Assembly (NCBI GenBank): GCA_016930085.1
Contig: JAFGHO010000057.1
Coordinates: 67,233 to 131,232, forward strand
Length of the DNA stretch: 64,000 bases
Direction of reading: 5' to 3'
From: Spirochaetales bacterium
GTDB lineage: Bacteria > Spirochaetota > Spirochaetia > SZUA-6 > JAFGRV01
The notes under the pieces are model-generated. The model saw only the letters and a program-made list of their open reading frames with translations. It did not search any database and was not told where the DNA came from. Positions 4,716 to 56,722 of this stretch are shown in pieces. How positions within the stretch are numbered: position 1 is the stretch's first letter; each line of letters opens with the position of its first letter. The position numbers were made by a program, and so were the translations under genes.

Positions 4716-4743
4716 TTGACTTTTAAAAAAAACAATGTATAAT
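4716..4743 (+). promoter_or_regulatory. Sigma-70-type promoter for the Cys-repeat protein
   Basis: TTGACT (4716-4721), a 16-base spacer and a perfect TATAAT (4738-4743), about 75 bases before the start codon at 4821. Very close to consensus, which suggests strong vegetative expression. Read by eye, not scored. Confidence 0.7.
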
Positions 4744-4820: not shown

Positions 4821-5792
4821 ATGGCCAGAAAGTGTGTATGTATCATTCTCATTCTTTCTTTCATAAGCGGTATGGCTGTTTTCGCACAGGATCAAGAAGA
4901 ATCGACGGCTTTGGAAATCGGAAAATTGACTGTTGAACCGGTCGCATTGACTCGTTGTCCGGTCGCTGAAACGAAATGCCCTGTTACGGTCACAAAATGT
5001 GAAGCCGTATTGACGAGATGCCCGGTTGTCGAAACAAGATGCCCCGCATATTACACGAAATGCCAGATTGCCGATACACGGTGCCCGGCTGTCGAGACAA
5101 AGTGTCCGCCGTATTATACGCGGTGCAGGCAGATTGAAACAAGCTGTCCCGCGACACTGACAAAATGTGAAGCCGTCGATACGAAATGTCCGGTAGCGGA
5201 GACCCGATGTCCGGTAGTGGAAACAAAATGTCCCCTGACGGAGACGAAATGTCCGGTTGTCGCCACAAAGTGTCTGTTGTCGATCTCAGAGACAAAGTGC
5301 CCTGCGGCCGAAACCCGCTGCCCGATCGTCCTTACAAAATGCAGTGAGGTCGCGGACACAAAATGTCCTGTTGTCGATACCCGCTGTCCGTCTGTGGAGA
5401 CAAAATGTCTCCTGTCGATCGCGGACACGAAATGTCCGGTGGCCGAAACGCGGTGTCCCATGACCGAAACGAAGTGTCCGCTTACCGAAACACGATGCCC
5501 GGTCTTGTTAACATCATGTGCTTTGACGGATGAGGCGACACGATGCCCTATGGTCGAAACACGATGTCCCGTGACGGTGACCAGCTGTCCTTCTGTTGAC
5601 ACGAAATGCCCGGCGGCGACGATATTGACACGCTGTCCGGTCATCGATTGTCCGATCATCATCGATATAAAAGAGGAAAGCGCTGCAGAACCACTGATAA
5701 AAAAGGACGTTTCCGCGGAGCGGGAAATTATCCTTGCGAATGATGAAATCTGTCCGGCGGTTGTTTCCGAATGTCCGACCGTTGTCAAATAG
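4821..5792 (+). CDS. Secreted Cys-heptad repeat protein (T-[KR]-C-P repeats), unknown function
   Basis: A 323-residue exported protein. Residues 1-22 are a signal peptide (positive N-terminus, hydrophobic core, AVFA then Q). From C46 to C277 there are 33 cysteines; the first 16 (C46 to C151) are spaced exactly seven apart, and later gaps are seven with a few eights and nines. All 32 from C46 to C272 follow Thr-X, where X is Lys or Arg except for three Ser, and most are followed by Pro. The unit is roughly T-[KR]-C-P-x-x-[ED]. A short acidic tail adds C311 and C318, again seven apart. Codons vary among repeats while the protein pattern is kept, so the pattern appears selected. No family is recognised. 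It could be a disulfide-laddered solenoid, a metal-binding surface protein or a structural envelope component. The start has AAGGAGG at 4804-4810 and there is a near-consensus promoter. Confidence 0.9.
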   Translation: MARKCVCIILILSFISGMAVFAQDQEESTALEIGKLTVEPVALTRCPVAETKCPVTVTKCEAVLTRCPVVETRCPAYYTKCQIADTRCPAVETKCPPYYTRCRQIETSCPATLTKCEAVDTKCPVAETRCPVVETKCPLTETKCPVVATKCLLSISETKCPAAETRCPIVLTKCSEVADTKCPVVDTRCPSVETKCLLSIADTKCPVAETRCPMTETKCPLTETRCPVLLTSCALTDEATRCPMVETRCPVTVTSCPSVDTKCPAATILTRCPVIDCPIIIDIKEESAAEPLIKKDVSAEREIILANDEICPAVVSECPTVVK

Positions 5793-5864
5793 CCGGAAAA
5801 AATAAACCGGCGGCGATGTCGTATGTCGGTCTGAATTATTGAGATCGTTTTCAGGATATATGTG

Positions 5865-5910
5865 AGGGATTTGTCTGAATGAAATTATCGTTCAGGCAAA
5901 TCCCTTTTTT
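5865..5910 (+). terminator. Rho-independent terminator after the Cys-repeat gene
   Basis: A 15-base stem (5865-5879 pairing with 5891-5905, one G-U) with an 11-base loop, followed by a T run to 5910. It ends the monocistronic Cys-repeat transcript. Confidence 0.85.
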
Positions 5911-6031: not shown

Positions 6032-8617
6032 GTGCTGGTGAAAGAAGAGCGGGCTCCGCGGCTGTCAGGAAATAACCCGTACCTCATTGGAATTACTATC
6101 CTGAGTTTCTTTATCTGCTGGATCGTTTCAGGGTCGACGGGGTTTCTGGTATATCCGCTACAGAATAGTATTGCCATGACCTTGATAACGGCAATTGTTG
6201 TTGTCTCTTTGGCGGCCGGAAAACCCAGGCGATTATATATTCTCATTCAGGTTTCGGCATACATTCTCACCTTCTTCTTCTTTTTTATCGGACAGCCGGC
6301 TGCCCTTATTCCGGGATGCGCCTTGGTTATCGCTTCGACTGCTTTCAACCGGGAAATTCGAGAACGGCGGGTGTTATTCTCCCTCTCCTTTGTTGTTTTT
6401 TGTTATGGATTATATCGATTCGTCCTTCTTTCGAGCGGTGCCTTCTGGCTTTTTATGGATTCGTTTTCTTCGCTGATAAGCGGATTCGCCGGATTCATGA
6501 CGGGAAACAAACTTAAAACGGGAATTACCTTCGCCGGTATCGACTATCTTTTTCTCACAATGGCGTGGACCGCACTCTGTTTGCTTCATCATTCGGGAAA
6601 AAAAGTTAAAAAAGGATTGATATGGATCGGTGTCATTCTGGCATGCCATTTCATCTATCTGATTATACTTTCGTATGTACCTGCATTGTTGAATCTTTTT
6701 CCCGAAAGCGGCGGAGAGCCGGTGTCCGGCATTGCCCTCTTTGCTAAAAAAACAATCCCCTGGAATCTGCCGCTCGCGGCACTTCTGATTCACGGAACAT
6801 TATCGGTGCTGCTTTATCGATCGACTGACTGGAACGGGACGGTCGTTTCGATGAAACGCGGTAAAAACGGGATAGCCGGGTTTTTCAGAGAAAAGCGAAA
6901 CAGTATTTTTATTACCGTTCCCCTGGTCATCTGCATATCGTTGCTGTTACACTTGTTTTATGAAAACTCATCGTGTGAGGGGAAAAAGATTGTCATCCAT
7001 GAAAAAGGTTATCTAAACTGGTTGCGGCCGCAGCACAATGATTACGGCAGGCTTTCGATCGGTATGTACGGAAACCTTCCGGATTTTATCAGCAGTATCG
7101 GATCCGATATTCTCGTTTCGCCCGATCTCTCGGAAGACGATCTCAGCGGGGCTGACCTTCTCATTCTGATTTATCCGAACGAACCATGGAGCCCGGAACA
7201 CCTCGGACGTATCCGGCGATTTGTCAGGGAAGGGGGATCGCTTTTGGTTATGGGCGAACACACTGTCATGGAGTCCGACGGTGGAGACAGAATCAATGAC
7301 GTGATCGAACCATCGGCGATCGGCCTCAATTTTGATTCAACGTTATTTGCCGTCGGCGGGTGGCTTCATTCATACGAAACATTGGCCCATCCGATAACTT
7401 CCGGGATCGATTGCGACCGTAATCAGTTCGGAATTGTCGTCGGTGCGTCACTCGATGTCCGGTTTCCGGCACGGCCCCTCGTGATCGGAAAATGGGGATA
7501 TGCCGATATCGGGAACCCCGAAACTCCGTCAATGATGGGAAATTCCCGCTACGACGGGGGCGAGAAACTCGGAGACCTGGTACTCGTAGCCGAACAGCGC
7601 GTCGGGAAAGGTCGAATCGTGGTATTCGGCGATACATCGAGTTTATCGAACGGTATTATTATCGGCGACCATCCGTTCGTCGGCCGGCTTTTCGCGTACC
7701 TGTCGAACAGAGGCTCGGGCGGGAGTTTCTCCTTCAGGTTCGGTCTCGCGGCCGTCCTGGCAATAGTCCTGGCCGTTGTTTTATTGCTTTCGGGAGATCC
7801 TCTTGCCGTCGCTCTGTGTGCGATCGGTTTTATTGTCCCTCATTTTGTCGCTCTCCGGATCAACGACGCACGATTTGACATTTATCCCAAAAGGAGAAGC
7901 GGGTCGGGGATCAAAATCTCGTATATCGATTTTTCACACAACAATACACCGAGCGCAGAATCATGGCGGCCGGACGGAACCATGGGACTTTCTCTCAACC
8001 TTTTCAGAAACGGGTATCTTAACTTTACCCTGCCTGAGTTCAAGGAGGAGAAACTGAAGCAGGCGGATCTTTTTGTCTGTATCGCACCGCAATCGACCAT
8101 ACCCCAACAGGAAATACAAAGCCTCAAGGAGATGGTGTATGACGGACTCATTCTTATTATTAACGCCGGCTACAAAGAACGGTTCGGATGTGAGGGATTA
8201 CTCGGGGCATTCGGTTTTGACTACCATCCCATGTACACGGAAGCGGAAGAACATATCGTAAAGGAAAACCGGCCCGAACCCCTGGGATTTTTCAAATCGC
8301 CGTATTTATCGACGGGCGAGTATTATTGTTTTGTCCGCTTCTATGCGGGCTGGCCCGTGATGTGTGAAGACCGGAACTCGGAAATACTCGCATACGGCTA
8401 TCATGATTATCCGATGATCATTCTGAGGAGATTCGGAAAGGGTAAGGTTGTTTTTATCGGCGATACCTGGTTTGCGACAAATCAGAATCTTGAACGCGAA
8501 AGCGGCGAACCGTTTGAAGGAATGCGCGAAAATATTCATTTCTGGCGGTGGTTGCTGAGCTATTGTGAGGACAGGCCGATGTGGATCCCGCCCGATCCCC
8601 GTTCCGCTGGGGATTGA
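6032..8617 (+). CDS. Large membrane protein with two GATase1-like (DUF4350-like) domains
   Basis: An 861-residue protein. Residues about 15-310 hold roughly eight hydrophobic helices. Residues about 318-560 look like a GATase1/ThuA-like fold of the DUF4350/GldG kind: a strand-helix opening, ADLLILIYPNEPW, RRFVREGGSLLVMGEH, and a closing GKGRIVVFGDTS. Two more helices (about 568-605) precede a second copy (625-850) ending GKGKVVFIGDTWF. No catalytic Cys-His pair of true amidotransferases is visible, so these are more likely binding modules outside the membrane. The start is GTG at 6032 or GTG at 6038; no clear Shine-Dalgarno is seen. The next gene, 61 bases on, is a paralogue. Role unknown; envelope biogenesis or surface transport is a guess. 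Confidence 0.75.
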   Translation: MLVKEERAPRLSGNNPYLIGITILSFFICWIVSGSTGFLVYPLQNSIAMTLITAIVVVSLAAGKPRRLYILIQVSAYILTFFFFFIGQPAALIPGCALVIASTAFNREIRERRVLFSLSFVVFCYGLYRFVLLSSGAFWLFMDSFSSLISGFAGFMTGNKLKTGITFAGIDYLFLTMAWTALCLLHHSGKKVKKGLIWIGVILACHFIYLIILSYVPALLNLFPESGGEPVSGIALFAKKTIPWNLPLAALLIHGTLSVLLYRSTDWNGTVVSMKRGKNGIAGFFREKRNSIFITVPLVICISLLLHLFYENSSCEGKKIVIHEKGYLNWLRPQHNDYGRLSIGMYGNLPDFISSIGSDILVSPDLSEDDLSGADLLILIYPNEPWSPEHLGRIRRFVREGGSLLVMGEHTVMESDGGDRINDVIEPSAIGLNFDSTLFAVGGWLHSYETLAHPITSGIDCDRNQFGIVVGASLDVRFPARPLVIGKWGYADIGNPETPSMMGNSRYDGGEKLGDLVLVAEQRVGKGRIVVFGDTSSLSNGIIIGDHPFVGRLFAYLSNRGSGGSFSFRFGLAAVLAIVLAVVLLLSGDPLAVALCAIGFIVPHFVALRINDARFDIYPKRRSGSGIKISYIDFSHNNTPSAESWRPDGTMGLSLNLFRNGYLNFTLPEFKEEKLKQADLFVCIAPQSTIPQQEIQSLKEMVYDGLILIINAGYKERFGCEGLLGAFGFDYHPMYTEAEEHIVKENRPEPLGFFKSPYLSTGEYYCFVRFYAGWPVMCEDRNSEILAYGYHDYPMIILRRFGKGKVVFIGDTWFATNQNLERESGEPFEGMRENIHFWRWLLSYCEDRPMWIPPDPRSAGD

Positions 8618-8678: not shown

Positions 8679-11279
8679 TTGAAAAGAGTATGGATAGGGA
8701 TTGCCCTGTTATCGTGCGCGTGGGCATTCGGCATAACGTTCTATCATGGACCGATATACGCATTATTTTTTTTAGCTGTCGGTGCAGGTCTCTTCTTTAT
8801 TTCAAAACTTGATTTTTCTCTACCGTCACGGCCTTTTTCGGTTATCGGCATACCATTAAGTCTTCCCGTTATCTTCATTCTCCCATGGCCGTATACAATC
8901 ATCCCGATTTTTTTACTGACCGGTCTTCTTATTCATCTCGCGGCCGGTCTCCTGCCCCGTGACCCGAAAACATGCTCGCCTGAAATCGCGCCGTTTTTAT
9001 CATTGATACTGCCGCACGCAGCACGAATCGCAAAAACACTCATTTTCGCCTCCGCTCTTCTGGCCGTCCAGGCGGTGGCACTCGAGCTTTATGTAACATT
9101 TACCGCCTCTTTCCGTGAGCTTCCCCGCATAATAGCGGACCTGTTGAACGGCCTCGCGACAATGCTGGGTTTCGAATCGGGCGTCACCACGGCAGGTATT
9201 TCCCTCTTTACCATGAGGAAAATACACACGCTCGGCGCGACATGGGAACTGATACTCGATCCCGTCCTTCTTGCCTTCATTGCGGGAAGTATCTTCTATT
9301 TTTGTTTTCATCTCGTTGCCTGGCGGAGAGAGAAGGAAACTTCCGGGGAAATCGTCTTCGTAGTAAGAAAATTCGGTGTTTTCGTCATCGGGATATGTAT
9401 ATGGATACCGCTCAGAAGCATGATCATGCTGGCCCTGTTTCTCAATCGGGCATTACTGGTCGAATATGAAGAAGTATTGAACCTTATGAACCAGTTCTTC
9501 AGTCAGTGGGTATTCATCGGCCTGCTTATTTTTCCCCTGCTTTTTGCCGTTTACTGCGTGAGACTCAGACCGATGCCCGAAACCGGCAATAATAACGGAA
9601 TACTTCGTTCGCTTCTGACAATACGCACAGGAGGGCCCCTTCTCGCAACAATCTGTTCAGTAATCCTTATTTGCACGGGTATTTTCTATGATCCTTCCGG
9701 TTTACGTAATGACGGCAGGGTATTGATCGATGAATATCATACCGATTGGGAACCGACCGAACGTTCTTTTGACACCGAATGGTACGGGGAAAAGTCCACC
9801 TACAATTACGCATGCATATATGATTATACCTCACACTATTATAACATCGCCAGACTGGAGGAACGCATTACCGCAACGGCGCTCGCCGATTGCGATGTTC
9901 TTATTCTCAAGGTACCCGAAGAAAAATACGGGGCGGAGGAGATCAAGGAAATAACGGATTTTGTACGGAACGGCGGGGGCCTCATTCTCATCGCGGAACA
10001 TACAGATGTCTTCAGGACAAGTTCCCATCTGAATACCGTGGCGTTACAGTTCGGATTCGAGTTCGAGGACACGAGCCTGATCGATATCGATAATGAGTTC
10101 AGACAAACATTCCACGTACCACGGATCCCGCACCCGATCATTCAACACATCCTTTCCCTCCGGTTTCAGGTATCGTGTTCGATCAAACAAAACACCCCTG
10201 ACGGACGCGCCGTCATCCGTGCCGCCGGGTTGCGAAGCCTGTTTGCCGATTATCACATGGGCAATTTTTATCCCCAGGTGGTCGATCATTCCGATGTCCG
10301 TTACGGGGCGTTCATCCAGCTTCTGGCCAAACGGTACGGCAAGGGCCGGGTTGCCGCTTTTACCGATTCAACCGTTTTTTCCAATTTCAGCGCTTTTGAA
10401 CCCGGCATCAGCGAATTGTGGCTCGGCATGATCGAGTGGTGCAACCGGCGGAATCCATGCGGCGAAATAAGGGGCGTCCTCTTTATCGCGGGAAGTCTCC
10501 TTCTCGGCATCGCCATTTATCTACTGCTGCGTTTCAGATTCAGGGAATGGGTTTTGCTTTTTGCCTCGATTCTTTTTTTCTGGGGTGTCTGCAGCACGGC
10601 GATTGGGAGCATTCACGGTTTTACCGTGAAATTTCCGGAAAAGCAGCGGGATTACGTTCAGGTAACCATCGACCGTAATATCTGCAATACGACACTCGGA
10701 AACGGCGGATTCATCGAAATGAGTGATGACGGATTCGGAATTTTCGAATTGTGGGTATTGCGGCTCGGTTATTTCACGAAGCGCTGTTATGCGGGAGATG
10801 TCTTTGACGGAGATCTCGCAGTTTTTTTCTACCCGGATGAAAAGGTTTCCGCTCAATTCGCAGGAGATTGTGCAAGGTATGTAAATAACGGTGGAAAGGT
10901 TCTGATTCTTGATTCGAGCCGTAATACGGATTCGACCGCAAACCGGCTTCTCGAACCATTCGGCATGAAAGTGAACAGGGAAGAGACTGTCGAAGGGATG
11001 CTCGAAGACGGAGAAGGGGAGGAGACCTCCGTTTCAGTCTCCGCTTTGACGATCGAAGGCGGGACGCCATTCGGGACCGTTTCCGGCAGACCGGTCGCCT
11101 CATGGAAACGGCATGGTAAGGGACATGTCGGCGTTATCGGATTCGGAAATCTCTTCAATGACGACATGATGGGTAATTTTTACGATATTGTTCCGGATGA
11201 CGGTCTCATGCGGAAGTACAGGCTTCAGTTTTCTTTAATACGTTCGGTGATACAAGAAAACAGACCGTTAGTCAGATAA
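8679..11279 (+). CDS. Paralogue of the preceding membrane protein (two GATase1-like domains)
   Basis: An 866-residue protein with the same plan: hydrophobic helices over about 1-300, a first GATase1-like module (from GRVLIDEYHTDW to GKGRVAAFTDS), a short helical pair, and a second module closing with GKGHVGVIGFG. In the helical part the run LLNGLATMLGF, then HTLGATWELILDP, then a helix with PLRSMIMLAL resembles the layout of exosortase/archaeosortase cores, but the catalytic Cys of those enzymes is not there (LILDP occupies its place), so any relation would be a non-peptidase derivative. The start is TTG at 8679, chosen because GAGGAG sits seven bases upstream. Its 3' end overlaps the convergent downstream gene by 12 bases. 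Function unknown. Confidence 0.75.
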   Translation: MKRVWIGIALLSCAWAFGITFYHGPIYALFFLAVGAGLFFISKLDFSLPSRPFSVIGIPLSLPVIFILPWPYTIIPIFLLTGLLIHLAAGLLPRDPKTCSPEIAPFLSLILPHAARIAKTLIFASALLAVQAVALELYVTFTASFRELPRIIADLLNGLATMLGFESGVTTAGISLFTMRKIHTLGATWELILDPVLLAFIAGSIFYFCFHLVAWRREKETSGEIVFVVRKFGVFVIGICIWIPLRSMIMLALFLNRALLVEYEEVLNLMNQFFSQWVFIGLLIFPLLFAVYCVRLRPMPETGNNNGILRSLLTIRTGGPLLATICSVILICTGIFYDPSGLRNDGRVLIDEYHTDWEPTERSFDTEWYGEKSTYNYACIYDYTSHYYNIARLEERITATALADCDVLILKVPEEKYGAEEIKEITDFVRNGGGLILIAEHTDVFRTSSHLNTVALQFGFEFEDTSLIDIDNEFRQTFHVPRIPHPIIQHILSLRFQVSCSIKQNTPDGRAVIRAAGLRSLFADYHMGNFYPQVVDHSDVRYGAFIQLLAKRYGKGRVAAFTDSTVFSNFSAFEPGISELWLGMIEWCNRRNPCGEIRGVLFIAGSLLLGIAIYLLLRFRFREWVLLFASILFFWGVCSTAIGSIHGFTVKFPEKQRDYVQVTIDRNICNTTLGNGGFIEMSDDGFGIFELWVLRLGYFTKRCYAGDVFDGDLAVFFYPDEKVSAQFAGDCARYVNNGGKVLILDSSRNTDSTANRLLEPFGMKVNREETVEGMLEDGEGEETSVSVSALTIEGGTPFGTVSGRPVASWKRHGKGHVGVIGFGNLFNDDMMGNFYDIVPDDGLMRKYRLQFSLIRSVIQENRPLVR

Positions 11280-13466
11280 ATTATCCGCCTGAATCGGAGC
11301 GGGAGATGTTACGGTTTTTTTACCTGTCTGAACGTCAAGTCCGAATGAATATCCGACTGAAAAACTCAATTCGTGTTTCGAGAATCGTTCGATCGAAATA
11401 TCATAATCTTCCGAATAATTGTAAAGCAGAGTATATAGCAGGGATCTTGAGGAATCGAATCGATAACGGATGGAAAGGCCTGCCTTGATATCGATATCTT
11501 CCACACCCTCTTCTTCGTCTTCAGGAACATAGATGGTCGATTTCTTTCGATTATGGTCGATGAAGCCCGCCGAAATGCCGAATGTAATCGCTTCAAACGG
11601 GGTGTAATATAAAGAGGCTGTGTATTGTTGTTTCAATCGCAATCCGGAGACCTCAGCGTCGTCTATGATTTCAAGAAACGCGAATCCGTTCAGTGCGAAT
11701 AATCCGACCGGCTGATCGACCACCAGCGTAAAACTGTTATTGAGTTCCTCATAGTAAGAACGGCACATACTGTGAGTGAGTGCCCACATAAAATAGATGT
11801 AGGTGAATGTATCAGTGTTGTTGAAGTGAAATCCGCATTTTATCCGCTTATTTTCCGTTGTGATGACCTCTTCACCAAGCGTATCATGAGTGATACTCTG
11901 CATATAGCCGGTGGAAAGCCGGAGACTCTTGTTGAAAAGATTCACACCGCCGTTCGCCGAAAATGAAATTTCATCGGAATAAAATCCGGGGAAACCGGGG
12001 AGGGTCTGACTGAAAATGATATCCCCGAGAAAGAGATCACCGTTATACTCCCCCGCACAAAGCCAGGCATAACCCCAGTCATTGTCATCTTCGAGATAAC
12101 CGCCCGAATCAAGATCACAAGAGAGATGCAGTTCCTTTAGCGGATAATACTCCACGGCCGCCCCCACGGAAAAATCAGGTTTGTAATAATCGAACAATAT
12201 ATCGGAGGAGGTGCCGGGTACGGCTCCGATGCTGCCGAAGCAGTGAATGTCGGCCTTGAAAAGATACCCGTCCGGATAAAGAGAATCTTTGAGGGTATAG
12301 GTGATGAAACCGCCCGTATGATTTTCTACCGGTTCATCCCACAAAGATTGATGAAAAAGGGCCATCAGGCCGATACTGCCGAAAAAAAGTGTTGCGGCCG
12401 CCCCCCTTCCGTAACAGTACTGTTCGGTGAGCGGGGAAACGGAATAGAAATGATCTCCGAGATAAAGATCGAGAAAATCGGAATAATACCGCAGGCTGTA
12501 TTCGTCTTCGTCGTCAATTATCGGATACGATGAGAATTCTTGTTCGGTAACGGGAATTTCGAGCATTTTATGCAGACGGAAATCGAGATGATGAGTTTTC
12601 TCCGCGTTTAAAGATCCCGCACCGGAAATGGTCGCTTCAATATCGCCGTACCACCGATCGATGACTTGTTCGGTGTGTCGGATCGATATCCGCACGGGAA
12701 ACAGATGACCCGGTACCACCGCTTTTTCAGGTAGCAGACTGATAACATCCACGTTCGTTTCTACGGTAAGCGGCCTGTCCGCCGAGAGACCGGCGGGGGG
12801 ATTGTCGCGTGAAAAAACCGATAATTCCAGGGTGTGCTTTATTGTTTGTGTCATCGATGCGTCTGTTTCGACCACTACATCCACCGTGACGGAACCGGAA
12901 CCGGGAAGTGTCAGGATGGTCGATCCGACGTTAAGAAGATACAGTGGAAAGTTTTGTGAACTGTAGAGGAAAAATTCGATTTGTACAACACGGGAGGAAT
13001 TGTTTTTAATTGTAAACGATGTGATTATTTCTTCACCGGCAAAAACACAGGAAGGAAGGGGTGCAGTCGTTACGGTCACGGGAAGAACGGGTAAAACGGT
13101 GACCGTTATCGTCCTTTTTTCTCTGAACAGCCCGTTATCACGGTCTTTTATGACATAACCGACCTCAAACGATCCTTGCGGCGTCTGTTCGGGTATGTAA
13201 AACCCTATGGTTTTTATTTGATATGATGCGGCGTTCAGTTCAAACGGAAGATCGGTTTCGGGAGATATCCATGCCGGGGGAAGAATCAGTTCCGACTCAA
13301 AGGTTCGGGTCTCTCTGGTGTTATTCCTGACTTCGAAAACAAGTGTCACCTTTTCTCCCGGATAGGATGTAATAATGCCGGTATGTTCCGGTATTATTTC
13401 AATCCCATCGGCCGGAGAGAGAGATGAAACAAGTAATATCGGTAGAAGAATGATGATGCATTTCAT
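11268..13466 (-). CDS. Exported protein with Ig-like (NEW3-type) repeats and probable beta-barrel
   Basis: A 732-residue protein when started at ATG 13466, which gives a good signal peptide (KCIIILLPILLVSSLSPADG); an upstream TTG at 13511 would add 15 unlikely residues. After the signal come two or three Ig-like beta modules (about 25-290) with phrases such as GEKVTLVFEVRNNTRETRTFE and AGEEIITSFTIKNNSSRVVQIEF, typical of NEW3/CARDB-like domains in envelope proteins. The rest (about 330-732) alternates aromatic and polar residues in strand-sized runs (for example LRLSTGYMQ and LSFSVGYSFGLDV), consistent with an outer-membrane barrel. It is convergent with the tandem membrane proteins. No enzyme motif is seen. 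Confidence 0.65.
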   Translation of the reverse strand: MKCIIILLPILLVSSLSPADGIEIIPEHTGIITSYPGEKVTLVFEVRNNTRETRTFESELILPPAWISPETDLPFELNAASYQIKTIGFYIPEQTPQGSFEVGYVIKDRDNGLFREKRTITVTVLPVLPVTVTTAPLPSCVFAGEEIITSFTIKNNSSRVVQIEFFLYSSQNFPLYLLNVGSTILTLPGSGSVTVDVVVETDASMTQTIKHTLELSVFSRDNPPAGLSADRPLTVETNVDVISLLPEKAVVPGHLFPVRISIRHTEQVIDRWYGDIEATISGAGSLNAEKTHHLDFRLHKMLEIPVTEQEFSSYPIIDDEDEYSLRYYSDFLDLYLGDHFYSVSPLTEQYCYGRGAAATLFFGSIGLMALFHQSLWDEPVENHTGGFITYTLKDSLYPDGYLFKADIHCFGSIGAVPGTSSDILFDYYKPDFSVGAAVEYYPLKELHLSCDLDSGGYLEDDNDWGYAWLCAGEYNGDLFLGDIIFSQTLPGFPGFYSDEISFSANGGVNLFNKSLRLSTGYMQSITHDTLGEEVITTENKRIKCGFHFNNTDTFTYIYFMWALTHSMCRSYYEELNNSFTLVVDQPVGLFALNGFAFLEIIDDAEVSGLRLKQQYTASLYYTPFEAITFGISAGFIDHNRKKSTIYVPEDEEEGVEDIDIKAGLSIRYRFDSSRSLLYTLLYNYSEDYDISIERFSKHELSFSVGYSFGLDVQTGKKTVTSPAPIQADNLSD

Positions 13467-13731
13467 GGTGATTGCGGATTCATAGTAACAGGAAGCGGTA
13501 TGCCGAATCAAGTGTTTTCATCAAAGTGCATATGTGTATTTCTCAGAGGGAATGCATCGATAGATCGAGTTTCTGCATACCGATTTGAATTGTTATAGTA
13601 TCGCCTTTAATGACATGCATATACCACCCACCCCGCACCCCCGAAAATATTTTCAGCCGGATCTATCAGAATAAGTATGCATTTTCCCTTGAATACGACA
13701 CCACGCGGCCAACGTCAGGCCCGACAGCCGT

Positions 13732-14742
13732 TTAAGACTCCGGGATAGGCACAATGTTGTCGATAAGGACTGACCTGTTATATGACTTCCCGTCAAGCAT
13801 CGTCCAGGCAGGCCCTGTAAATGTTCCTGTAGCGCTTCCGCCTATTGCCCACCATTCTCCCTCGATCGATGAGAGTCCGCCGAATGATTCGAGTTCACCT
13901 CGGGCCATGCCTACCAGATTTGTCCTTCTTCTGTACACGACATAATAATAGGAATAGAGAAAATCTTCGAGTCCGGCCGGATCAATCGCGTCGAGACTCC
14001 ATGGAACACATTCGGCCGATGTTTTTTTCAATAATTCGACGTACCTGTTGAGTGAAGAAATGGCAACGGGAATCCCGATATCCGGAAGAGGTCGTATATC
14101 GTAGCCTAAAAAACCGGCAATCGTGCTGTATGAAATATCGAGCGGCTGATCCGACGGATCATTTGCAATAAAAATTTCACCCCCCGAAAACGATGCAACG
14201 GTGCCGTCCGGAGTTTCACAGATCAACAAAGCGATACAATGTGAATGAATGGAAAGCATGGAAATATCTTCGATATTACCGTTCGGAATGCAATAGTAGA
14301 CGAGTACCTTGTACGGTTTTCCATCAGAGATAACATTCGCTTCGATTCCCTGTACATATGATATTTTGTTTGTCGTTTCATTAATCGTCACTTTCAAGAA
14401 CCCTGATCCGTCGGAAAATTCACCTGAAAAGAGATAAGTATCGATATTCTTTTCTATATCAACAGCCAGTGAGGCATTCCATAGAATGACATCAAAAGAG
14501 TCTCCGGCAGAATAATTCGCTGTATTTCTTTTTAGTCCGTTGAAAATCGGTGTATAGGCGAGAATGGAAAATTCCGTTTCGGAAAAAGCATCGGCTTGAA
14601 TTGATCTACCCGCCGAGCCCCCATCTATCCCGAATATGGGAATGTATGCGGGTATATCGTTACCCTTTTCATTTTCCACGTCACATCCCGTCAATGCAAG
14701 GATGACCACCGCCACACTCAAGAGAATCATCCATTTTTTCAT
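13732..14742 (-). CDS. Lipoprotein of unknown function
   Basis: A 336-residue lipoprotein: the first 20 residues are a lipoprotein signal ending in the lipobox LTGC, with C20 as the lipidated residue. CAGGAGGGG precedes the ATG. The mature part is acidic and beta-rich with no recognised domain; recurring phrases are FGIDGGSAGRS and a Tyr-rich segment (SYYYVVYRRR). A TATAAT at 14765-14770 is close enough to be a -10 but lacks a good -35. It is preceded by a 367-base AT-rich gap and appears monocistronic. Confidence 0.7.
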   Translation of the reverse strand: MKKWMILLSVAVVILALTGCDVENEKGNDIPAYIPIFGIDGGSAGRSIQADAFSETEFSILAYTPIFNGLKRNTANYSAGDSFDVILWNASLAVDIEKNIDTYLFSGEFSDGSGFLKVTINETTNKISYVQGIEANVISDGKPYKVLVYYCIPNGNIEDISMLSIHSHCIALLICETPDGTVASFSGGEIFIANDPSDQPLDISYSTIAGFLGYDIRPLPDIGIPVAISSLNRYVELLKKTSAECVPWSLDAIDPAGLEDFLYSYYYVVYRRRTNLVGMARGELESFGGLSSIEGEWWAIGGSATGTFTGPAWTMLDGKSYNRSVLIDNIVPIPES

Positions 14743-19388: not shown

Positions 19389-19440
19389 GATATCCCGGAA
19401 GCGATATCCCGGAAGCGATATCCCGGAAGCGATATCCCGG
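19389..19440. repeat. 14-base tandem repeat (3.7 copies)
   Basis: The unit GATATCCCGGAAGC occurs at 19389-19402, 19403-19416 and 19417-19430, with a partial fourth copy at 19431-19440. It begins two bases after the kinase stop codon. The copies are identical, which suggests a recent expansion. Confidence 0.95.
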
Positions 19441-19591
19441 ACATTTCATGAGGACTCAAGAAGGTATTGTCGCCGGGTAATCGGCGTTAATGCGGTTTTC
19501 TCACGTACAGTTATAAATTAACGCTAACTTGTTTCAATATAAATAATTGATTTAAATACCCAAAAACAGTTTGTATTGTGAGAAAAGCGGG

Positions 19592-43633: not shown

Positions 43634-44179
43634 CTATGTTTCATCGAGGGCGACCGTTTCATAGGTGATCTTCATCGTCGCTTCGATGTTACCGCCGGAT
43701 CTGCCGGATTTTATGATTATCTCGGCGATCGTCCAGTATTTATTCGCCTCCGATACATCCTCCAAAAACCGCATCAGATAATAGGCGCTTCCTTTTACCT
43801 TGAACTCGAGATACTTTTTATTTTCGCTTCCCGATATCGTTCGCTGGCTGTCGATCACGAGTCTGTTTCCGGTTATATAGTCCTGGACGGAGAGGCCGAA
43901 CGTGGCGATATCGGTTTCATCCGGCTTGAAGAACCTGCTTTTTACGTTTTCGATTTTTTCCGAAATCTCCTTGATCTTTTTATCCCAGTCGACATTATCG
44001 TCGATTTTCTGGCTGCTGTAACGCCTGAGATCCCGTTCTTCCCTTTCGATTTTCCTGTTTATATCGAAAAGGCCGCTGCCGCTCAAGGAGGTCCTGAGAA
44101 AGAAAAACAAAGCCGTTCCACAGACGAGCGCGATGATTCCGAGTATGTACAACATACGTTTTTCGTTACTCGACAGCAT
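43634..44179 (-). CDS. gspM: GspM/PilO-like T2SS protein
   Basis: A 181-residue protein with a short cytoplasmic start, one helix (10-29), a coiled-coil (about 40-90, Lys/Glu/Ile-rich) and a ferredoxin-like C-terminal domain (LEFKVKGSAYYLMRFLEDVSEANKYWTI). That is the GspM/PilO plan. Its start overlaps the end of the GspL-like gene by 14 bases. Confidence 0.75.
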   Translation of the reverse strand: MLSSNEKRMLYILGIIALVCGTALFFFLRTSLSGSGLFDINRKIEREERDLRRYSSQKIDDNVDWDKKIKEISEKIENVKSRFFKPDETDIATFGLSVQDYITGNRLVIDSQRTISGSENKKYLEFKVKGSAYYLMRFLEDVSEANKYWTIAEIIIKSGRSGGNIEATMKITYETVALDET

Positions 44180-45374
44180 ATCCCGCTCCTTTATTGAAAA
44201 TACCGGTCATTCGGAATTTTTCACGTGTAATCAGGGGAACCAGTACTTCCTCGAAATACGGATTGCTGTTCAGGGCATTCTGGTAGGTGTATGGTTCGCC
44301 CCGGGTACTCCCCTCGATGGTAAAATAATACCGTTTCTGCCGTTCGCGTTTATTGTCGACCATGACGGTTGTTTCCTTTGTTTCGAGCCGGAAATAGGTG
44401 AGGTCCAGATTCTGTCCGAAAACCCTGTTGATTTCGGATAAAAGGAGAAAGACATCAGCCGGTTTATGTTCGAGGATTCTGGCCAGTTCGGCCCGTTTTT
44501 TATTGTATTCGTCCCGCTGGCTCGAGATCTTGAATATCGTGTCCTTTTCCTTTTTGAGTTTCCGGTAATACTCCGCCCTGGTTTCGACATATTTGTTGAA
44601 GAGGAGACACACGAGAATGACAAGGGGGACGGCGAGCATTTCGATCTTCAGTTTTTGATGGAATATGAACGACTGTTTCTTTTTTCTGAAAAGATAATCC
44701 GTCTTGTTCGATATAAGCGAGAGTGATTCTTCAATAGGGAGAAACTCGACGGTGCCCGCGTTCTGAACGAGTTCCCGTGATTGTTCCTCGAGATACGATG
44801 ACTCGTCTCTGAGACAGAGAAAGACACACACATATTCTTCCAGGTTTTTGGGAAGCATATTCTTTATCTTGAGAAAATCGAGAAACACTTCCTTTTCCCG
44901 CTTGATTGCAGAGGATGACTTGAATACCCCTTCTTCGAAGAGGGAAATATCGACCCAGTCCTTGTGCCAGAAAAAAAAGACACAGTTTTTACCATCGTAT
45001 TTTTTTGTCAGCTTGGCGAGAATGGGGAAGGGGAGGATCAGCGGTTTGTTGTTCGCCAGTTCCTTGTATTCGTTGATCGTGTCTTTTGATGAAATAAAAA
45101 GTACGGCGTACCGCTGTTTGTTCTGTGTCAGGACCTTGAAATCGAAGATGGTATCTTCGGGGTCGCCGGGGTAAAGGCTGCGGAGTTTATAGGTGAGGAT
45201 GTTTCCCATCTCACTCTGATGAACGGGGGGGACCGTGGTCACCTTGATGTCGAAGTCGAGGCGGGACATCATGAGTGCGTCGAAGTTCGCGGAAGAATCG
45301 ATCGGTTCTTCCCTGTCGAAAAGATAGAGGGTCGGTCCTTCTCCGTTTTTATGCGCGTAGGCAATATGCTTCAT
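44166..45374 (-). CDS. gspL: GspL-like T2SS protein (PilM/PilN-like)
   Basis: A 402-residue protein. The first about 240 residues form a cytoplasmic actin-like/PilM-like domain. One helix (about 248-263, LAVPLVILVCLLFNKY) crosses the membrane. The periplasmic part has a coiled-coil (RAEYYRKLKKEKDTIFKISSQRDEYNKKR) and a PilN-like fold. GspL recruits the GspE ATPase and pairs with GspM. It overlaps gspK by 4 bases and gspM by 14. Confidence 0.78.
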   Translation of the reverse strand: MKHIAYAHKNGEGPTLYLFDREEPIDSSANFDALMMSRLDFDIKVTTVPPVHQSEMGNILTYKLRSLYPGDPEDTIFDFKVLTQNKQRYAVLFISSKDTINEYKELANNKPLILPFPILAKLTKKYDGKNCVFFFWHKDWVDISLFEEGVFKSSSAIKREKEVFLDFLKIKNMLPKNLEEYVCVFLCLRDESSYLEEQSRELVQNAGTVEFLPIEESLSLISNKTDYLFRKKKQSFIFHQKLKIEMLAVPLVILVCLLFNKYVETRAEYYRKLKKEKDTIFKISSQRDEYNKKRAELARILEHKPADVFLLLSEINRVFGQNLDLTYFRLETKETTVMVDNKRERQKRYYFTIEGSTRGEPYTYQNALNSNPYFEEVLVPLITREKFRMTGIFNKGAGYAVE

Positions 45375-46432
45375 AGCCTGATATCCTCTTCCAGCAGTTT
45401 ATATACAATATCGTCCGTGGCCTTCTTTTGGGGAACCCGCGCGACGATCCACCGTAATTCCGATTCTTCCATCATTACCCTTATTTCCCAGAAGTTCGTG
45501 AATACTCCCAGATAATGATAAATGCGCTTGCCCGGGTACTGCAGACTACTACCAATTATACTTTTTAAGCCTTTGAGCGTCAATCCTTTTTCATTCTCCT
45601 CCCTGACTTTCAGAATTTGTTCGGCAATACCTGCGTGATTTTTGATGTTGAACGGGGGAAAAGAAAGAAGGCCCCGGAGAATTTCTTCGGGCATGAAATG
45701 CACGTTCATCGCGGGTTCGACGTTTACGATGGGAAACAGCTGGTCGAACATCCGTCCGCCGAGGTGCTGGTGAGTGAACCAGTTTTCGAGTTCCCTGTTG
45801 TCGTCGATGATCTTTTTTTCCGCCAGAATCTTTTGCGCGTACATGTCATGAAACCGCCGTGCCTCGTTTTCGCTTCCCGTCCTTAGTTCGCACACCTTCT
45901 CGAGCATGTATTCATAGCAGAGGTTGAAGTTGAAATAGGAATAGGGAGTGCAAAACGTCTTCAGGATGTCCTCTTCGAAATAGTCGTCATAGGCGGGGGA
46001 GAGGGGGTATTGTATTCCCTCGTCGATCCAGAGCTGTTTGATCGTATTCTGGTTGTAGTTCGCCTCGTCCTTGAAAAGCTTCATGGGAGAGGGAAACATG
46101 GCCTTGTTGAGATGTTCGAGGATAAGCGGGTCGATGCAGTTGGGATTGAGATAACTCGATACATCCTTCAGGTAGACGTTTTCATTCGCGTTGACGAATC
46201 CCCAGACATCCTGGAAGAAATTGTCGTTTTCCCTATCTTCTGCGTCTTCCGAAAGGAGTTCCACCACCTGACGCGCTTCGGATATGAGATATTTCTTTAT
46301 GTCGTCCTCCTGTTTGTGGATCATCTCGATCCTGAGGCTCGTTTGAATAAAGAAACTCAATCCCACGAAAACCGTTGTCAGAAAAAGAACGATGGCCATG
46401 ACCGATATCGCGGAGGATCCCCTGTTTCCCAT
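45371..46432 (-). CDS. gspK: GspK-like minor pseudopilin
   Basis: A 353-residue protein with the prepilin signal MGNRG then SSAISVMAIVLFLTTVFVGLSFF, with cleavage after Gly5. Position +5 of the mature form is Ser, not Glu, as is usual for GspK, the pseudopilus tip. The large C-terminal domain is mostly helical. The start overlaps the gspJ stop by one base (TGATG). Confidence 0.82.
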   Translation of the reverse strand: MGNRGSSAISVMAIVLFLTTVFVGLSFFIQTSLRIEMIHKQEDDIKKYLISEARQVVELLSEDAEDRENDNFFQDVWGFVNANENVYLKDVSSYLNPNCIDPLILEHLNKAMFPSPMKLFKDEANYNQNTIKQLWIDEGIQYPLSPAYDDYFEEDILKTFCTPYSYFNFNLCYEYMLEKVCELRTGSENEARRFHDMYAQKILAEKKIIDDNRELENWFTHQHLGGRMFDQLFPIVNVEPAMNVHFMPEEILRGLLSFPPFNIKNHAGIAEQILKVREENEKGLTLKGLKSIIGSSLQYPGKRIYHYLGVFTNFWEIRVMMEESELRWIVARVPQKKATDDIVYKLLEEDIRL

Positions 46433-47013
46433 CAGTCCTCCTTCCAGAAAGGATAACTCCCGAACCTAACAAAGATTTTCACCGGTTCGTATTCGTCATA
46501 TGTTTCCAGAATCGATACATCCAATCCGATAAGCCCCTCTTCCTTTGTGGAGACGATTTCAAATGTCACTTCGTCATAAGGACCTGCCTTGAATGTCGGA
46601 ATGTAGGTTTCTCCCGATTCTTCGTCTTCATCCGTCTCTTCTTCTTCGATAATCGAGGTCGTGATGATGATATATTTGTCTTTATACTCGATCGAGAGCA
46701 TGTTCTCTTTCTTCCCGTCGTAAAAGGGGAGGATGACTTTGTCGCTTTCCTCTTCAATCTCAGCTTCCGGCATCCAGAAAGGAATTTTTATTGCACCGCA
46801 GACCTGCATAAGATAGGAGTCGAGGGCAAGGAGTTTCTGGGCTTTTTCCGTTGCTTCGGGGACGCTTCCGATGAGATTCATTACCCCGATAAAACCCGTC
46901 CAGATTGAAAACCCCAAGACACTTAAAATGACCACCGAAACGAGAATCTCTATAAATGTAAACCCGTCTTCCTTATTCTTCGCCGGTAAGCCGGTTGTAT
47001 GTTTCAAACTCAT
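46432..47013 (-). CDS. gspJ: GspJ-like minor pseudopilin
   Basis: A 193-residue pseudopilin with leader ...NKEDG and mature start FTFIEILVSVVILSVLGFSIW, with Glu at +5. The C-terminal domain is beta-rich and acidic, with an EEEETDEDEESGE run. The start codon lies inside gspI (41-base overlap). Only a weak GATAGAA ribosome site is visible. Confidence 0.82.
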   Translation of the reverse strand: MSLKHTTGLPAKNKEDGFTFIEILVSVVILSVLGFSIWTGFIGVMNLIGSVPEATEKAQKLLALDSYLMQVCGAIKIPFWMPEAEIEEESDKVILPFYDGKKENMLSIEYKDKYIIITTSIIEEEETDEDEESGETYIPTFKAGPYDEVTFEIVSTKEEGLIGLDVSILETYDEYEPVKIFVRFGSYPFWKED

Positions 47014-47194
47014 TTCTATCTACAATAATTTCAACGGCACGATGCCACGAGAATCCCGCAGCACGACCCAATAACGTGAACCCGTTCAGGATCGCGGTCA
47101 TCGCGATCGAGAGTATAAGCATGGTTGCCAGCACATCGATGAGGACATAACCGTTTTCACTTTTCTTTTTATTACGGTTCATCATCTTCTTCAT
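46973..47194 (-). CDS. gspI: Short GspI-like minor pseudopilin
   Basis: A 73-residue protein from ATG 47194. After the leader KKMMNRNKKKSENG it reads YVLIDVLATMLILSIAMTAILNG, a prepilin-type helix, but with Asp at +5 in place of Glu. It ends after another 35 residues, so the usual GspI globular domain (total about 120 residues) is shortened. It overlaps gspG by 23 bases and gspJ by 41. Between G and J it is in the normal gspI position. It could be a degenerate form or a specialised tip component. Confidence 0.7.
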   Translation of the reverse strand: MKKMMNRNKKKSENGYVLIDVLATMLILSIAMTAILNGFTLLGRAAGFSWHRAVEIIVDRNEFETYNRLTGEE

Positions 47195-47657
47195 TTGCTT
47201 CCAATCCCCAGGAGGTAATATCGTCATCACCGCCTTCGGCACCGTCAGGTCCGTAGGATTGAATTCCGTAATCGACACCATCCGGACCCGGAACCATATA
47301 GATATATTCGTGACCCCACGGGTCTTTTGGAATTTTACCGTCCTGGATATATGGTTTCAGTGAATCCAGCCCTTCGCTTTGATCGGGATAACTCCTGTTC
47401 TGTGCGAGGTACATTTGCAGAGCCACCTTGAAGGTCCCGATATGCTGTTTTGCCGTCGTTTTTTGAGCTTCGACAATCCACGGTATGATCGCGATCGCGA
47501 TCGTTGTCATGAGGATCGCGATAATCGAGATCGTGACAAGGATTTCCACAAAGGTTGTTCCCGTTTCAGGATGCCGCTTTGTCAGGGATGTGACGTGTTT
47601 TCGCAATCTTTCGAAAACCCCCGGTCTTTTTTTATTTTTTTTGATATGCCCGTTCAT
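47172..47657 (-). CDS. gspG: GspG major pseudopilin
   Basis: A 161-residue protein with an unusually long 33-residue leader ending ETG, then TTFVEILVTISIIAILMTTIAIAIIPW with Glu at +5. The C-terminal part has the major-pseudopilin features: DSLKPYIQDGKIPKDPWGHEYIYMVPGPDGVDYGIQSYGPDG, including the calcium-loop-like segment. The start at 47657 is supported by AAGGAGGT; an upstream in-frame start would add 50 residues inside gspF. Confidence 0.93.
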   Translation of the reverse strand: MNGHIKKNKKRPGVFERLRKHVTSLTKRHPETGTTFVEILVTISIIAILMTTIAIAIIPWIVEAQKTTAKQHIGTFKVALQMYLAQNRSYPDQSEGLDSLKPYIQDGKIPKDPWGHEYIYMVPGPDGVDYGIQSYGPDGAEGGDDDITSWGLEANEEDDEP

Positions 47658-47680
47658 ATTCGCATACCTCCTTGATGATA

Positions 47681-48889
47681 TTATGTTCCAAAACCCTGGT
47701 AGATCGAGAAAATCGGAACAAAAAAGGTCATGATCAGAAAGAGGATGATCAGCCCGACAAAAATGATCAGCGCCGGCTCGACGACCGCCATAAAGCCGGT
47801 CGACCATTTCTCGAGCTCATCCTGGTAGTACTGCCTGAGTTGTCCGAACACGACCTCGACTTTTCCCGAACGTTCCCCGATAGACACCCACCGTCCGATC
47901 CGCTCGTCAAAGTAAGGATCTTCCAAAAATGCCTTTGAAAGATGTTCCCCCTTGATGATCTTGTCCCGTATCAGCCTGATGCCGGAGGCGAGTGCCCGGT
48001 TGCTGAGCACCTTTCCCGCTTCCGGGAGGGCATCTTCCACGGCAAATCCGCTCGACGTGAGTGTTTCCATGGCAAAGAGAAAATTCAAACTTTCCCTTAT
48101 GTATATAATATTCCCGATCACGGGAAGTTTCAATAACACCTTGTCGAGCTGGTCGCGGAGGGGGCCGGAACTTTTACGGATAATCAGTACCGCGACGATC
48201 AACGCGATAAACACGACCAGAAAGACCGCCCCGAAGGTAAAAAAGACGTTCACAAAGGCCATCGTCGACTGGATCTGTTCGTTCACTCCCGTATGAAGGG
48301 TCGCGAAGATGTCCTTGATACGGGGAAAGATGAAAATCGCCATCCCGATTACCCCAAAAATCGCAAAACCCAATGTCATGAGCGGGTAGGAGAGGGCTCC
48401 CGTCAGTTTGTCCCGGATCTGCTTGCTTTCCCGCAGATAGCCCGCGAGGCGCTCGAATATATTGTCGAGTGTCCCGATCTTGTCCCCGATCTTGACGAGC
48501 CCCCGGTAAAGGGGCGGAAAACTTCCCCTGAACTTGTCGATCGCCTGGTGAAAGGAATCCCCCTTTTTGATCTGCTCGATAAGGGTATTGGTCAGCTTGT
48601 TCACCGGACCCTTGGTGAAAATCGTCTTGTTCACTTCGAGGGCGTCCTTCAGGGACAGCCCCGAGGTAAGGAGGAGGGAGAGGGTCTGGGTAAACTCCAG
48701 AATCGAGTTTTGCGAAAAGCGCTTTCCCGTGGCCGCTTTTTCGTCTTCCGATTTCACTTCCCGGATTTTTATCGGCGCGAAATTGTTCTGGAGAAACTCG
48801 AGGATAAGGACATCCTCGTTCGGGGCCTCTTTTGTCATCTCCATGGTTTTCCCCGTATTGTCTGCAATCTTGCAATGATATAACGGCAT
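47681..48889 (-). CDS. gspF: GspF inner-membrane platform protein
   Basis: A 402-residue protein with duplicated T2SSF domains and three membrane helices. Seen: FTQTLSLLLTSGLSLKDALEV, PLYRGLVKIGDKIGTLDNIFERLAGYL, and the second copy SLNFLFAMETLTSSGFAVEDALPEAGKVL with VSIGERSGKVEVVFGQLRQYY. Its start overlaps the gspE stop by one base. Confidence 0.95.
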   Translation of the reverse strand: MPLYHCKIADNTGKTMEMTKEAPNEDVLILEFLQNNFAPIKIREVKSEDEKAATGKRFSQNSILEFTQTLSLLLTSGLSLKDALEVNKTIFTKGPVNKLTNTLIEQIKKGDSFHQAIDKFRGSFPPLYRGLVKIGDKIGTLDNIFERLAGYLRESKQIRDKLTGALSYPLMTLGFAIFGVIGMAIFIFPRIKDIFATLHTGVNEQIQSTMAFVNVFFTFGAVFLVVFIALIVAVLIIRKSSGPLRDQLDKVLLKLPVIGNIIYIRESLNFLFAMETLTSSGFAVEDALPEAGKVLSNRALASGIRLIRDKIIKGEHLSKAFLEDPYFDERIGRWVSIGERSGKVEVVFGQLRQYYQDELEKWSTGFMAVVEPALIIFVGLIILFLIMTFFVPIFSIYQGFGT

Positions 48890-50400
48890 CAGCCTGCAAC
48901 CGCCCTTTCTACTTCCGATATTGTCGTCACCCCGTTGATGATCTTGTCGATACCATCGGCAAGCAGGGTTTTCATCCCGTTGCCGACGAGGTATTCCTTG
49001 ATCAGCGAATCCTTCATGCCCTTGATGATCATTTCCTCGACTTCGGGGTTGACTGAAAAATATTCAAAAACGCCGATCCTCCCCTTGTAGCCCGTCCCGT
49101 TACAGGCGTCGCACCCCTTCCCCTGATAGATTTTTTTCTTCTTCGAGATACCGTAGCGCGCGAGGAGTTCCTGTTCCGCGGGTGAAGGGGTAATCGTCTC
49201 CCTGCATTCGGGACAGATCTTTCTCACGAGACGCTGGGCAAGGGAGCCGCGGAGGACCGCAGCAAGGAGATAGGGCTCGATTCCCATGTTTTTGAGACGG
49301 GTGATAACGGAGACCGAATCGTTGGTATGAAGCGTGGAGAAAACAAGGTGGCCGGTCAAAGCGGCACGGATAGAGAGTTCCGCAGTGTCCGTGTCCCTGA
49401 TCTCACCGACCATGACGATGTTCGGGTCCTGACGGAGTACCCGCCGGAGAATCGAGTCGAAGGTAAGCCCGATACGCTCGTTTGTCTGGATCTGGTTGAT
49501 CCCTTTTGTCACGTATTCGATCGGATCCTCGATCGTGATGATCTTCACGTGTTCGGAATTGAGTTCCTGTAGCACGGCGCTCAAGGTCGTCGTTTTTCCG
49601 CTTCCCGTGGGTCCGGTGACCAGCATAAGCCCGTTCGGGGTCAGGCATTTTTTCCTGAACTCCAAAAGCTGACTTTCCGTCATTCCGGTTTCATCGAGTT
49701 TCAGAAGGGTCCGCTTTTTGTTGAAGAGCCTCAAGACGATCGATTCCCCGTTGGCGATCGGGATGATCGAGACACGGAGGTCGATTTCGTCGTCGCCGAG
49801 GTGAACCGAAATACGCCCGTCCTGGGGAAGCCGTTTTTCCATGATGTTGAGGTTCGCCATAATCTTGAGACGGGAAGCGACGGCGGGGAAGCGGTCCTTG
49901 TCGATTCTCGATACGGTTTTTAGGTGGCCGTCGATTCTGTAACGGACGTACACCTCGTCGTCGAACCCCTCGATATGGATGTCCGACGAGCCCTTCCTGA
50001 TCGCCTCGATCATGATGCTGTTGACGAGCATGACGATCGGCGCGTCGTTTGCCAGTTTGTCGAGCAGTATTTTTTCGTTTTCCGGTTTGTCCGCGATCCC
50101 CTCATCGACCCCGGTCGCAGCAAGACGTTCGCTCAAATACGCGGAAAACTCGTTTTTATCGAGCGCACAAAAGATAATGCGTTTCTTGTGAAAGTTTTTC
50201 AGGTTTTCGAGAAGGGTATAGTTTTTTGTGTCGACCAGGCCGACGAAGACCATGTCGTCGTCTTCCTTCAGGCGGATGACATGATTCGCTTCGATGTATT
50301 CGAGCGGATACTGTTTTTCACCGTCGGGCAGCGGTTTGAAATCGGAGAGCGAGACCTGAACCATCGGAAGATCGTGAAGAAAATCATCGATAATTTCCAT
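48889..50400 (-). CDS. gspE: GspE secretion ATPase
   Basis: A 503-residue ATPase. Seen: the Walker A box GPTGSGKT (263-270), Asp box DPIEY (292-296), Walker B region NIVMVGEIRDTDTAE (327-341), His box TGHLVFSTLHTND (349-361), and the tetracysteine zinc motif CPEC (396-399) and CDAC (430-433). The N-terminal domain is short. It powers pseudopilus growth. The gspD stop is only two bases away. Confidence 0.96.
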   Translation of the reverse strand: MEIIDDFLHDLPMVQVSLSDFKPLPDGEKQYPLEYIEANHVIRLKEDDDMVFVGLVDTKNYTLLENLKNFHKKRIIFCALDKNEFSAYLSERLAATGVDEGIADKPENEKILLDKLANDAPIVMLVNSIMIEAIRKGSSDIHIEGFDDEVYVRYRIDGHLKTVSRIDKDRFPAVASRLKIMANLNIMEKRLPQDGRISVHLGDDEIDLRVSIIPIANGESIVLRLFNKKRTLLKLDETGMTESQLLEFRKKCLTPNGLMLVTGPTGSGKTTTLSAVLQELNSEHVKIITIEDPIEYVTKGINQIQTNERIGLTFDSILRRVLRQDPNIVMVGEIRDTDTAELSIRAALTGHLVFSTLHTNDSVSVITRLKNMGIEPYLLAAVLRGSLAQRLVRKICPECRETITPSPAEQELLARYGISKKKKIYQGKGCDACNGTGYKGRIGVFEYFSVNPEVEEMIIKGMKDSLIKEYLVGNGMKTLLADGIDKIINGVTTISEVERAVAG

Positions 50401-50402
50401 GA

Positions 50403-52625: not shown

Positions 52626-52634
52626 ATTCACTCC

Positions 52635-56650: not shown

Positions 56651-56722
56651 GCGAGCGTCGTATAATGGTTATTACCCGAGCTTCCCAAGCTCGTGACGGG
56701 AGTTCGATTCTCCTCGCTCGCT
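56651..56722 (+). tRNA. tRNA-Gly (anticodon CCC)
   Basis: A 72-base cloverleaf: acceptor stem GCGAGCG (56651-56657) pairs with CGCTCGC (56715-56721) and the discriminator is U. The anticodon arm is CGAGC-TTCCCAA-GCTCG, giving CCC. The T arm has GGGAG-TTCGATT-CTCCT. No CCA is encoded. Confidence 0.95.

Follow-up and report, generated by a model that had tools for sequence, protein, structure and literature searches.

Among described systems, those closest to the locus considered here concern a predicted secretion complex and a class of exported cell-wall proteins. DUF4350/GldG-like proteins have been proposed as part of a secretion complex encoded beside S-layer and Ig-domain proteins in archaea (PMC5898192). 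The DUF4350 family (arCOG01314) was placed in a predicted complex of archaea and bacteria for secretion or membrane remodelling, with a vWA protein, an AAA+ ATPase (COG0714) and a single C-terminal transmembrane segment (PMC5898192). YTV-domain cell-wall proteins are restricted to Planctomycetales/Planctomycetia (PMC8567305, PMC10632474).

The window, which is the whole 64,000-nucleotide stretch of DNA analysed here, comes from a 5.36-Mb Spirochaetales genome of 135 contigs that is 96% complete (G000), and it contains a cassette of three genes, T-A-B, of which the first encodes a regular Thr/Cys repeat protein. The T repeat is an undescribed family and T-A-B is an undescribed cassette. Neither Pfam, NCBIfam nor PDB holds a described family with a usable match to the repeat, coiled-coil, pentapeptide, RTX and LbH repeats are without a match to it in Pfam or PDB, and no description was found in the literature, open-licence papers being covered; the statement of a first-pass annotation that no known repeat class fits is thus upheld. 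The Pfam model MSG (PF02349, Pneumocystis major surface glycoprotein) scores 23.7 bits against a cut-off of 22; the matched stretch spans 32 residues where the model has 76 positions, and 11.5% of the protein is cysteine. As the homologues of T score below or just above this cut-off and at other places, the match is taken as one of composition and not of membership.

The repeat protein and its relatives

T (positions 4821-5792, forward strand) begins with ATG and encodes 323 amino acids with 32 Thr-X-Cys(-Pro) units and 37 cysteines. The first 15 gaps between Thr-X-Cys motifs are all exactly seven residues, which bears out the earlier count of 16 units at exact spacing among the 32, and the later gaps are, in order, 9, 7, 7, 8, 7, 7, 9, 7, 7, 7, 7, 9, 7, 7, 7 and 9. 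The residue X is Lys or Arg in 29 of the units and Pro follows Cys in 24, again as annotated. Cysteine pairs seven residues apart number 26, compared with 4.1 expected and a maximum of 12 in 20,000 shuffles. Codon identity from unit to unit is 66, 64 and 35% at the first, second and third positions, respectively; for the Thr and Cys codons, third-position identity is 0.38 and 0.52, compared with 0.30 and 0.50 from the codon usage of neighbouring genes, and Tandem Repeats Finder reports only weak arrays at T (69-86%). Because third positions are near chance while the amino acids hold, it is the protein pattern that is conserved and not a DNA satellite, and the repeat is kept by selection at the protein level, a point on which the first-pass annotation was right. 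Elsewhere in the window, about four perfect tandem copies of the 14-mer GATATCCCGGAAGC lie at 19389-19441, directly after a 1070-aa sensor-kinase-like ORF, and two convergent tRNA genes of equal Rfam score, possibly inverted near-copies, are found at 56651-56722 (forward strand) and 56897-56968 (reverse strand).

A search with the lone T sequence identified one orthologue, in G002, another Spirochaetales genome, which belongs to a different genus of the same family; the two proteins are 58% identical in their alignment. The orthologue starts with a similar signal-peptide region and has the DCPIIID stretch after the repeats in common with the window protein, whose signal peptide (MARKCVCIILILSFISGMAVFA/QD) was read from the sequence, and T is predicted to be exported on the basis of this signal sequence alone. 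A profile of the two sequences yielded 13 loci in a species-level genome collection with E values from 5e-38 to 3e-68, the G002 gene (L032) included, in Phycisphaerae, Pirellulales, Sedimentisphaerales, other Planctomycetota and Verrucomicrobiota. T homologues are therefore found in three phyla, Spirochaetota, Planctomycetota and Verrucomicrobiota, and the reading frame is intact in the different genus as well as in the other phyla; several of these relatives come from one metagenome series (Zod_Metabat) and others do not.

The homologues contain up to 148 cysteines, mostly one per heptad. Among 999 pooled units of the family, Thr and Cys are invariant and Pro nearly so (present after Cys in 87%), V/A and E are favoured before the motif, and X is varied, with Lys/Arg in only 49%, although these two residues dominate in the window protein. 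Some relatives are solo proteins; in others, DUF7901 and GEVED domains precede the repeat, in one case together with a dockerin. A divergent member (L105, G1115) has a lamin-tail match just below the cut-off. The window protein ends in ..CPAVVSECPTVVK (5748..5789, forward strand; located by tail alignment), preceded by a repeat-free linker, and a tail of the type C..[VI]xxxC.[TL][VI] after such a linker is common to it and five planctomycete proteins; tails similar to that of the window protein are those of L025, L028, L029, L030 and L031 in the tail alignment. This common C-terminal tail argues for an origin of the family by common descent and not by convergence.

The distribution of T is sparse. 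A true match was found only in the window genome among the 393 Spirochaetota searched, G002 having appeared in the search of the order; the 392 Planctomycetota gave five matches, two of them in already known holders, and the 289 Verrucomicrobiota gave three credible matches, including the known centre genome. This patchy presence over phyla suggests horizontal spread. The GC content of the cassette, 0.495, exceeds the window mean of 0.464 by about one standard deviation (0.029), and composition thus carries no strong sign of recent transfer. No relatives were found in phages or in IMG/VR, and plasmid matches, all under 36% identity, were taken as low-complexity matches. The weak matches read in G012, G042, G161, G410 and G1096 are repeats in chance frames (microsatellites), and that in G040 shows no ladder on reading. 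An anti-phage role was considered as well and dropped, no PADLOC match having been obtained.

Conserved genes downstream of T

An all-against-all comparison of neighbouring ORFs gave A and B as the only neighbours common across loci. By tblastn, A and then B follow T on the same strand in L023-L026, L028-L035, L104 and the window, with partial coverage of B in L033 and L034; in L101 A follows T and the contig then ends, and in L027 and L100 the contig stops within T or shortly behind it. Thus, T is followed by A (and B) in all 14 canonical loci with downstream sequence in addition to the window, L101 contributing A alone. The pair is absent beside the divergent ladders L102 and L103 (both G492) and L105. 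Genes upstream of T differ between the two Spirochaetales genomes, whereas the gene D (11268..13511, reverse strand; 746 aa), which is convergent to B, is kept in both and only there, with 35% identity over 732 aa to L012:1587-3647. D has no Pfam family and, as read from its sequence, may be an exported and possibly outer-membrane protein. Neither an ATPase, an outer-membrane channel nor a metal-transport gene is conserved with the cassette.

Upstream of T lies a sigma-70-type promoter (4716..4743, forward strand; TTGACT-16 nt-TATAAT), proposed solely from its match to 11 of 12 consensus positions, and a TTGACA-TATTAT pair was seen by eye at the equivalent place upstream of the G002 orthologue. 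An intrinsic terminator is predicted between T and A (5864..5906, forward strand; 19 pairs and a T tail, -28.7 kcal/mol, z -6.5); the gap behind the G002 orthologue contains no unusual hairpin. The near-consensus promoter and strong terminator of the first-pass annotation are thereby recovered as pattern matches, but its description of T as a "dedicated single-gene unit" has to be given up, as A and B downstream are conserved with T across phyla. With a promoter of its own and a strong terminator before A, T may be made as a structural product in excess of its machinery.

A (6032..8617, forward strand; 861 aa) comprises an N-terminal hydrophobic multi-helix region and GATase-like (DUF4350 / IFT52-GIFT / GldG-type) regions, and B (8679..11279, forward strand; 866 aa) is paralogous to A in the GIFT region and has another membrane region at its N terminus. 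In Pfam, A matches DUF4350 (7.9e-12) and IFT52_GIFT (4.2e-7), and B matches IFT52_GIFT (6.2e-11), DUF4350 (1.6e-10) and ABC_transp_aux (1.4e-9), the last family being matched in A also; the gathering score of DUF4350 (PF14258; 30.4) is exceeded by both, with 46.2 bits for A and 42.0 bits for B. The profile of A matches IFT52 in PDB. The AlphaFold2 model of B, built from nine sequences, is of moderate confidence (mean pLDDT 65), and part of it superimposes on the IFT52 N-terminal domain with TMt of 0.61-0.65. Together, these comparisons show a GIFT-like fold for part of A and B, and their GldG/IFT52-like domains are probably extracytoplasmic. Residues conserved in A are E409-H410-T411, H453-P454, G533-D534-T535-S536 and N540, and a site [DE]-H-T / H-P / D-[ST] is common to A and B; most A relatives at greater distance retain it as well.

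A search for A in the same 392 Planctomycetota identified 16 genomes at E below 1e-40, and the slot directly upstream of A, on the strand of A, was read in 15 of these neighbourhoods (L141-L155). Where T is lacking, the neighbour is usually a repetitive or multidomain protein. In L144 (10307-15274, reverse strand), the protein upstream of the A-B pair is an exported one of 1656 aa with 137 cysteines and no Pfam family; it is built mostly of 11-residue units, T-x-D-P-x-x-x-x-C (mostly T-x-D-P-x-D-x-x-C), and Thr stands eight positions before Cys in 129 of the 137 cases. This ladder is as striking as that of T. Two proteins precede A-B in L147, and the farther one (12145-14541, reverse strand) is exported; most of its 33 cysteines lie in Cys-Ser-Val repeats, behind which come bacterial Ig domains. 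In L148 (5280-11549), L149 (9681-16160), L151 (9333-15737) and L153 (1242-7466), the gene directly upstream of A-B encodes an RHS-type protein some 2100 aa long, assigned by Pfam in L153 and by size in the other three, in L148 by reading also, which suggests that some RHS proteins share A-B as partner genes. CarboxypepD_reg repeat proteins occupy the slot in L150 (by Pfam) and L155 (by reading), and a TPR protein does so in L142 and L143, the latter with a T-like gene nearby on the opposite strand; in L145, L146, L152 and L154 the type was left unassigned.

The tree of A groups the T-linked proteins in one clade (100/100) with a single T-less member inside (L141), which adjoins an acyl-CoA synthetase gene and not a repeat protein; within this clade, the two Spirochaetales sequences are united in a branch of their own (100/100). 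The A proteins beside the RHS, Cys-Ser-Val and 11-residue types fall in another supported group, whose inner details are unsure, several branches being long. Taken together, the upstream types and the tree suggest that A-B partners repetitive exported proteins and that the type of repeat goes with the lineage of A.

Proposed assembly and possible roles of the cysteines

The preferred reading, which has in our view about an even chance of being right, is that T is a cysteine-ladder structural protein and that A and B assemble, export or anchor it. T would be the exported repetitive product of the cassette, and A and B, as paralogous envelope proteins, would likely form a complex to which the long repeat protein passes on its exit from the Sec pathway. 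We infer that A acts with B on T in its assembly or export, that T is located at the surface and that its thiols are used: the pair may assemble, export or anchor T to give a fibre or coat, at the surface or outside the cell, in which the evenly spaced thiols could serve for cross-linking or ligand binding. With neither an ATPase nor an outer-membrane channel among its conserved genes, the cassette accounts neither for the energy source nor for a route across the outer membrane. The window contains type II secretion-like genes as well (44166-52631, reverse strand), with GspD-, GspE-, GspF-, GspK- and GspL-like members by reading; these provide a possible outer-membrane route for T, to which they have no link.

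Bacteria without Dsb enzymes tend to keep cysteine out of exported proteins. DSBA (PF01323) and VKOR (PF07884) gave no match in the window genome or in G002, and among the 13 T-bearing genomes searched for these two families, both are missing in nine (the host and 8 of the 12 others); the DSBA search gave matches in 8 of 14 control genomes. A ladder of disulfides, within or between chains, stabilising an extended solenoid or a cross-linked coat, is a possible though doubtful reading, and was the chief one in the first-pass annotation. The even and very dense spacing of cysteine in an exported protein agrees with it, spontaneous oxidation is possible, and the planctomycete YTV-domain proteins are a precedent for cysteine-rich exported wall proteins; however, the lack of recognisable DsbA and VKOR in most holders of T weakens the case for disulfides made by these enzymes. 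That same lack is consistent with an anoxic envelope in which the cysteines stay in the thiol form and bind a metal, a sulfur species or some other ligand, and hydrogenase-type and NADH-dehydrogenase-type genes in the window (by reading) fit an anaerobe. Such a thiol or metal store is nevertheless unlikely, since the seven-residue spacing does not provide the CxC, CC or CxxC clusters usual in metallothionein-type sites and no metal-transport gene accompanies T. Should the thiols of T prove to be reduced, they would constitute an exception to the exclusion of cysteine from exported proteins in Dsb-less bacteria.

A thioether or other covalent Thr-Cys link, made in the 7- and 11-residue ladders by a dedicated enzyme, possibly A or B, is very improbable. 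In both ladder types found at the A-B slot, Thr is almost as constant as Cys, and the acidic-His-Thr / His-Pro / Asp-Ser/Thr site conserved between A and B could be read in favour of such a link, but A, B and the scanned neighbours gave no match to a dehydratase or cyclase of the lanthipeptide type, and the modification would need to act outside the cytoplasm. Finally, that the repeat is a low-complexity or satellite artefact without function, as the microsatellites behind the weak matches in other genomes might suggest, is ruled out for practical purposes by the codon-position test and by synteny in three phyla.

AlphaFold2 with the lone T sequence is uninformative on the fold (pLDDT 33). Unit-to-unit variation was tested for periodicity in exact heptad runs of 14 or more units against shuffled unit order. 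Across several proteins, from the window and L023-L035, the combined peak is at 0.37 cycles per unit (z 13.5, a value that overstates independence as the proteins are related), i.e. about 2.7 units or 18.9 residues, whereas z is 0.9 at 1/8; the window protein itself peaks at 0.365 with z 2.3 only, the G002 protein alternates (0.475) and the period in L068 is three. Sampling of the chain at every seventh residue makes residue periods of 11.1, 5.1, 4.3, 2.95 and 2.08 just as possible. In a phase analysis, size and polarity favoured about 11.1 residues per turn, hydropathy 4.3 and charge 5.1, and 18.9 was disfavoured. The period of about 2.7 units is either structural or an 8-unit block pattern (3/8 = 0.375) from a common ancestor.

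A broader proposal, tentative and rather more likely wrong than right, would make A-B an undescribed general envelope machine that handles long periodic proteins whose repeat module can be exchanged (7- or 11-residue Thr/Cys, Cys-Ser-Val or RHS), and the Thr/Cys ladder a new fold of about 2.7 units per turn, with its cysteines reduced or Thr-Cys linked, in bacteria without DsbA and VKOR. The A-B pair predicts other repetitive proteins that use the same machinery. As an undescribed, extremely regular Thr/Cys repeat with a matched envelope pair in three phyla, T-A-B may offer a testable way towards a new kind of bacterial material, surface-bound or extracellular, and towards the system that assembles it.

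Comparison with described systems

Exosortases (PF09721) are, like A and B, polytopic membrane proteins tied to exported proteins in the same phyla; however, profile comparison of the membrane regions of A and B with this family is not significant (hhalign probability of 5% for B and 2% for A), these regions have no conserved catalytic Cys, and no exosortase was found in G000 or G002, so this reading is not supported. The IFT52 N-terminal GIFT domain and OST48/Wbp1 resemble part of A and B in fold (IFT52_GIFT, PDB 5fmr/5fms), but these proteins are eukaryotic and have other roles, and the relationship is one of domains only. With GldG and GldF-GldA, accessory to gliding and type IX secretion, the cassette has in common a weak GldG match in B (TIGR03521) and the ABC_transp_aux matches in both proteins; the score of B is 15.2 bits against a cut-off of 389.85, and the cassette has neither an ABC ATPase nor a GldF permease.

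The YTV-domain proteins are, like T, exported, cysteine-rich and partly of the same phylum, and are set apart from T by motif and taxonomic range. The YTV motif is absent from the window protein and the solo T proteins, and the letters YTV occur in three fusion ORFs (L023, L025 and L029), not as a repeat; T is found in Phycisphaerae, Sedimentisphaerales, Pirellulales, Verrucomicrobiota and Spirochaetales, and it is rare (5 of 392 Planctomycetota). The predicted DUF4350 complex resembles the cassette in that A and B carry DUF4350/GldG-like domains and in that the neighbours are exported proteins, Ig-like or of S-layer type. It differs in that A and B are paired and have N-terminal multi-helix membrane regions, and in that no vWA or ATPase gene is conserved with them: vWA and AAA+ ATPase (COG0714) genes had no Pfam match among the scanned window neighbours and are not among the neighbours common across loci. 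With these differences, the DUF4350/GldG secretion complex (PMC5898192) is the nearest published idea to A-B.
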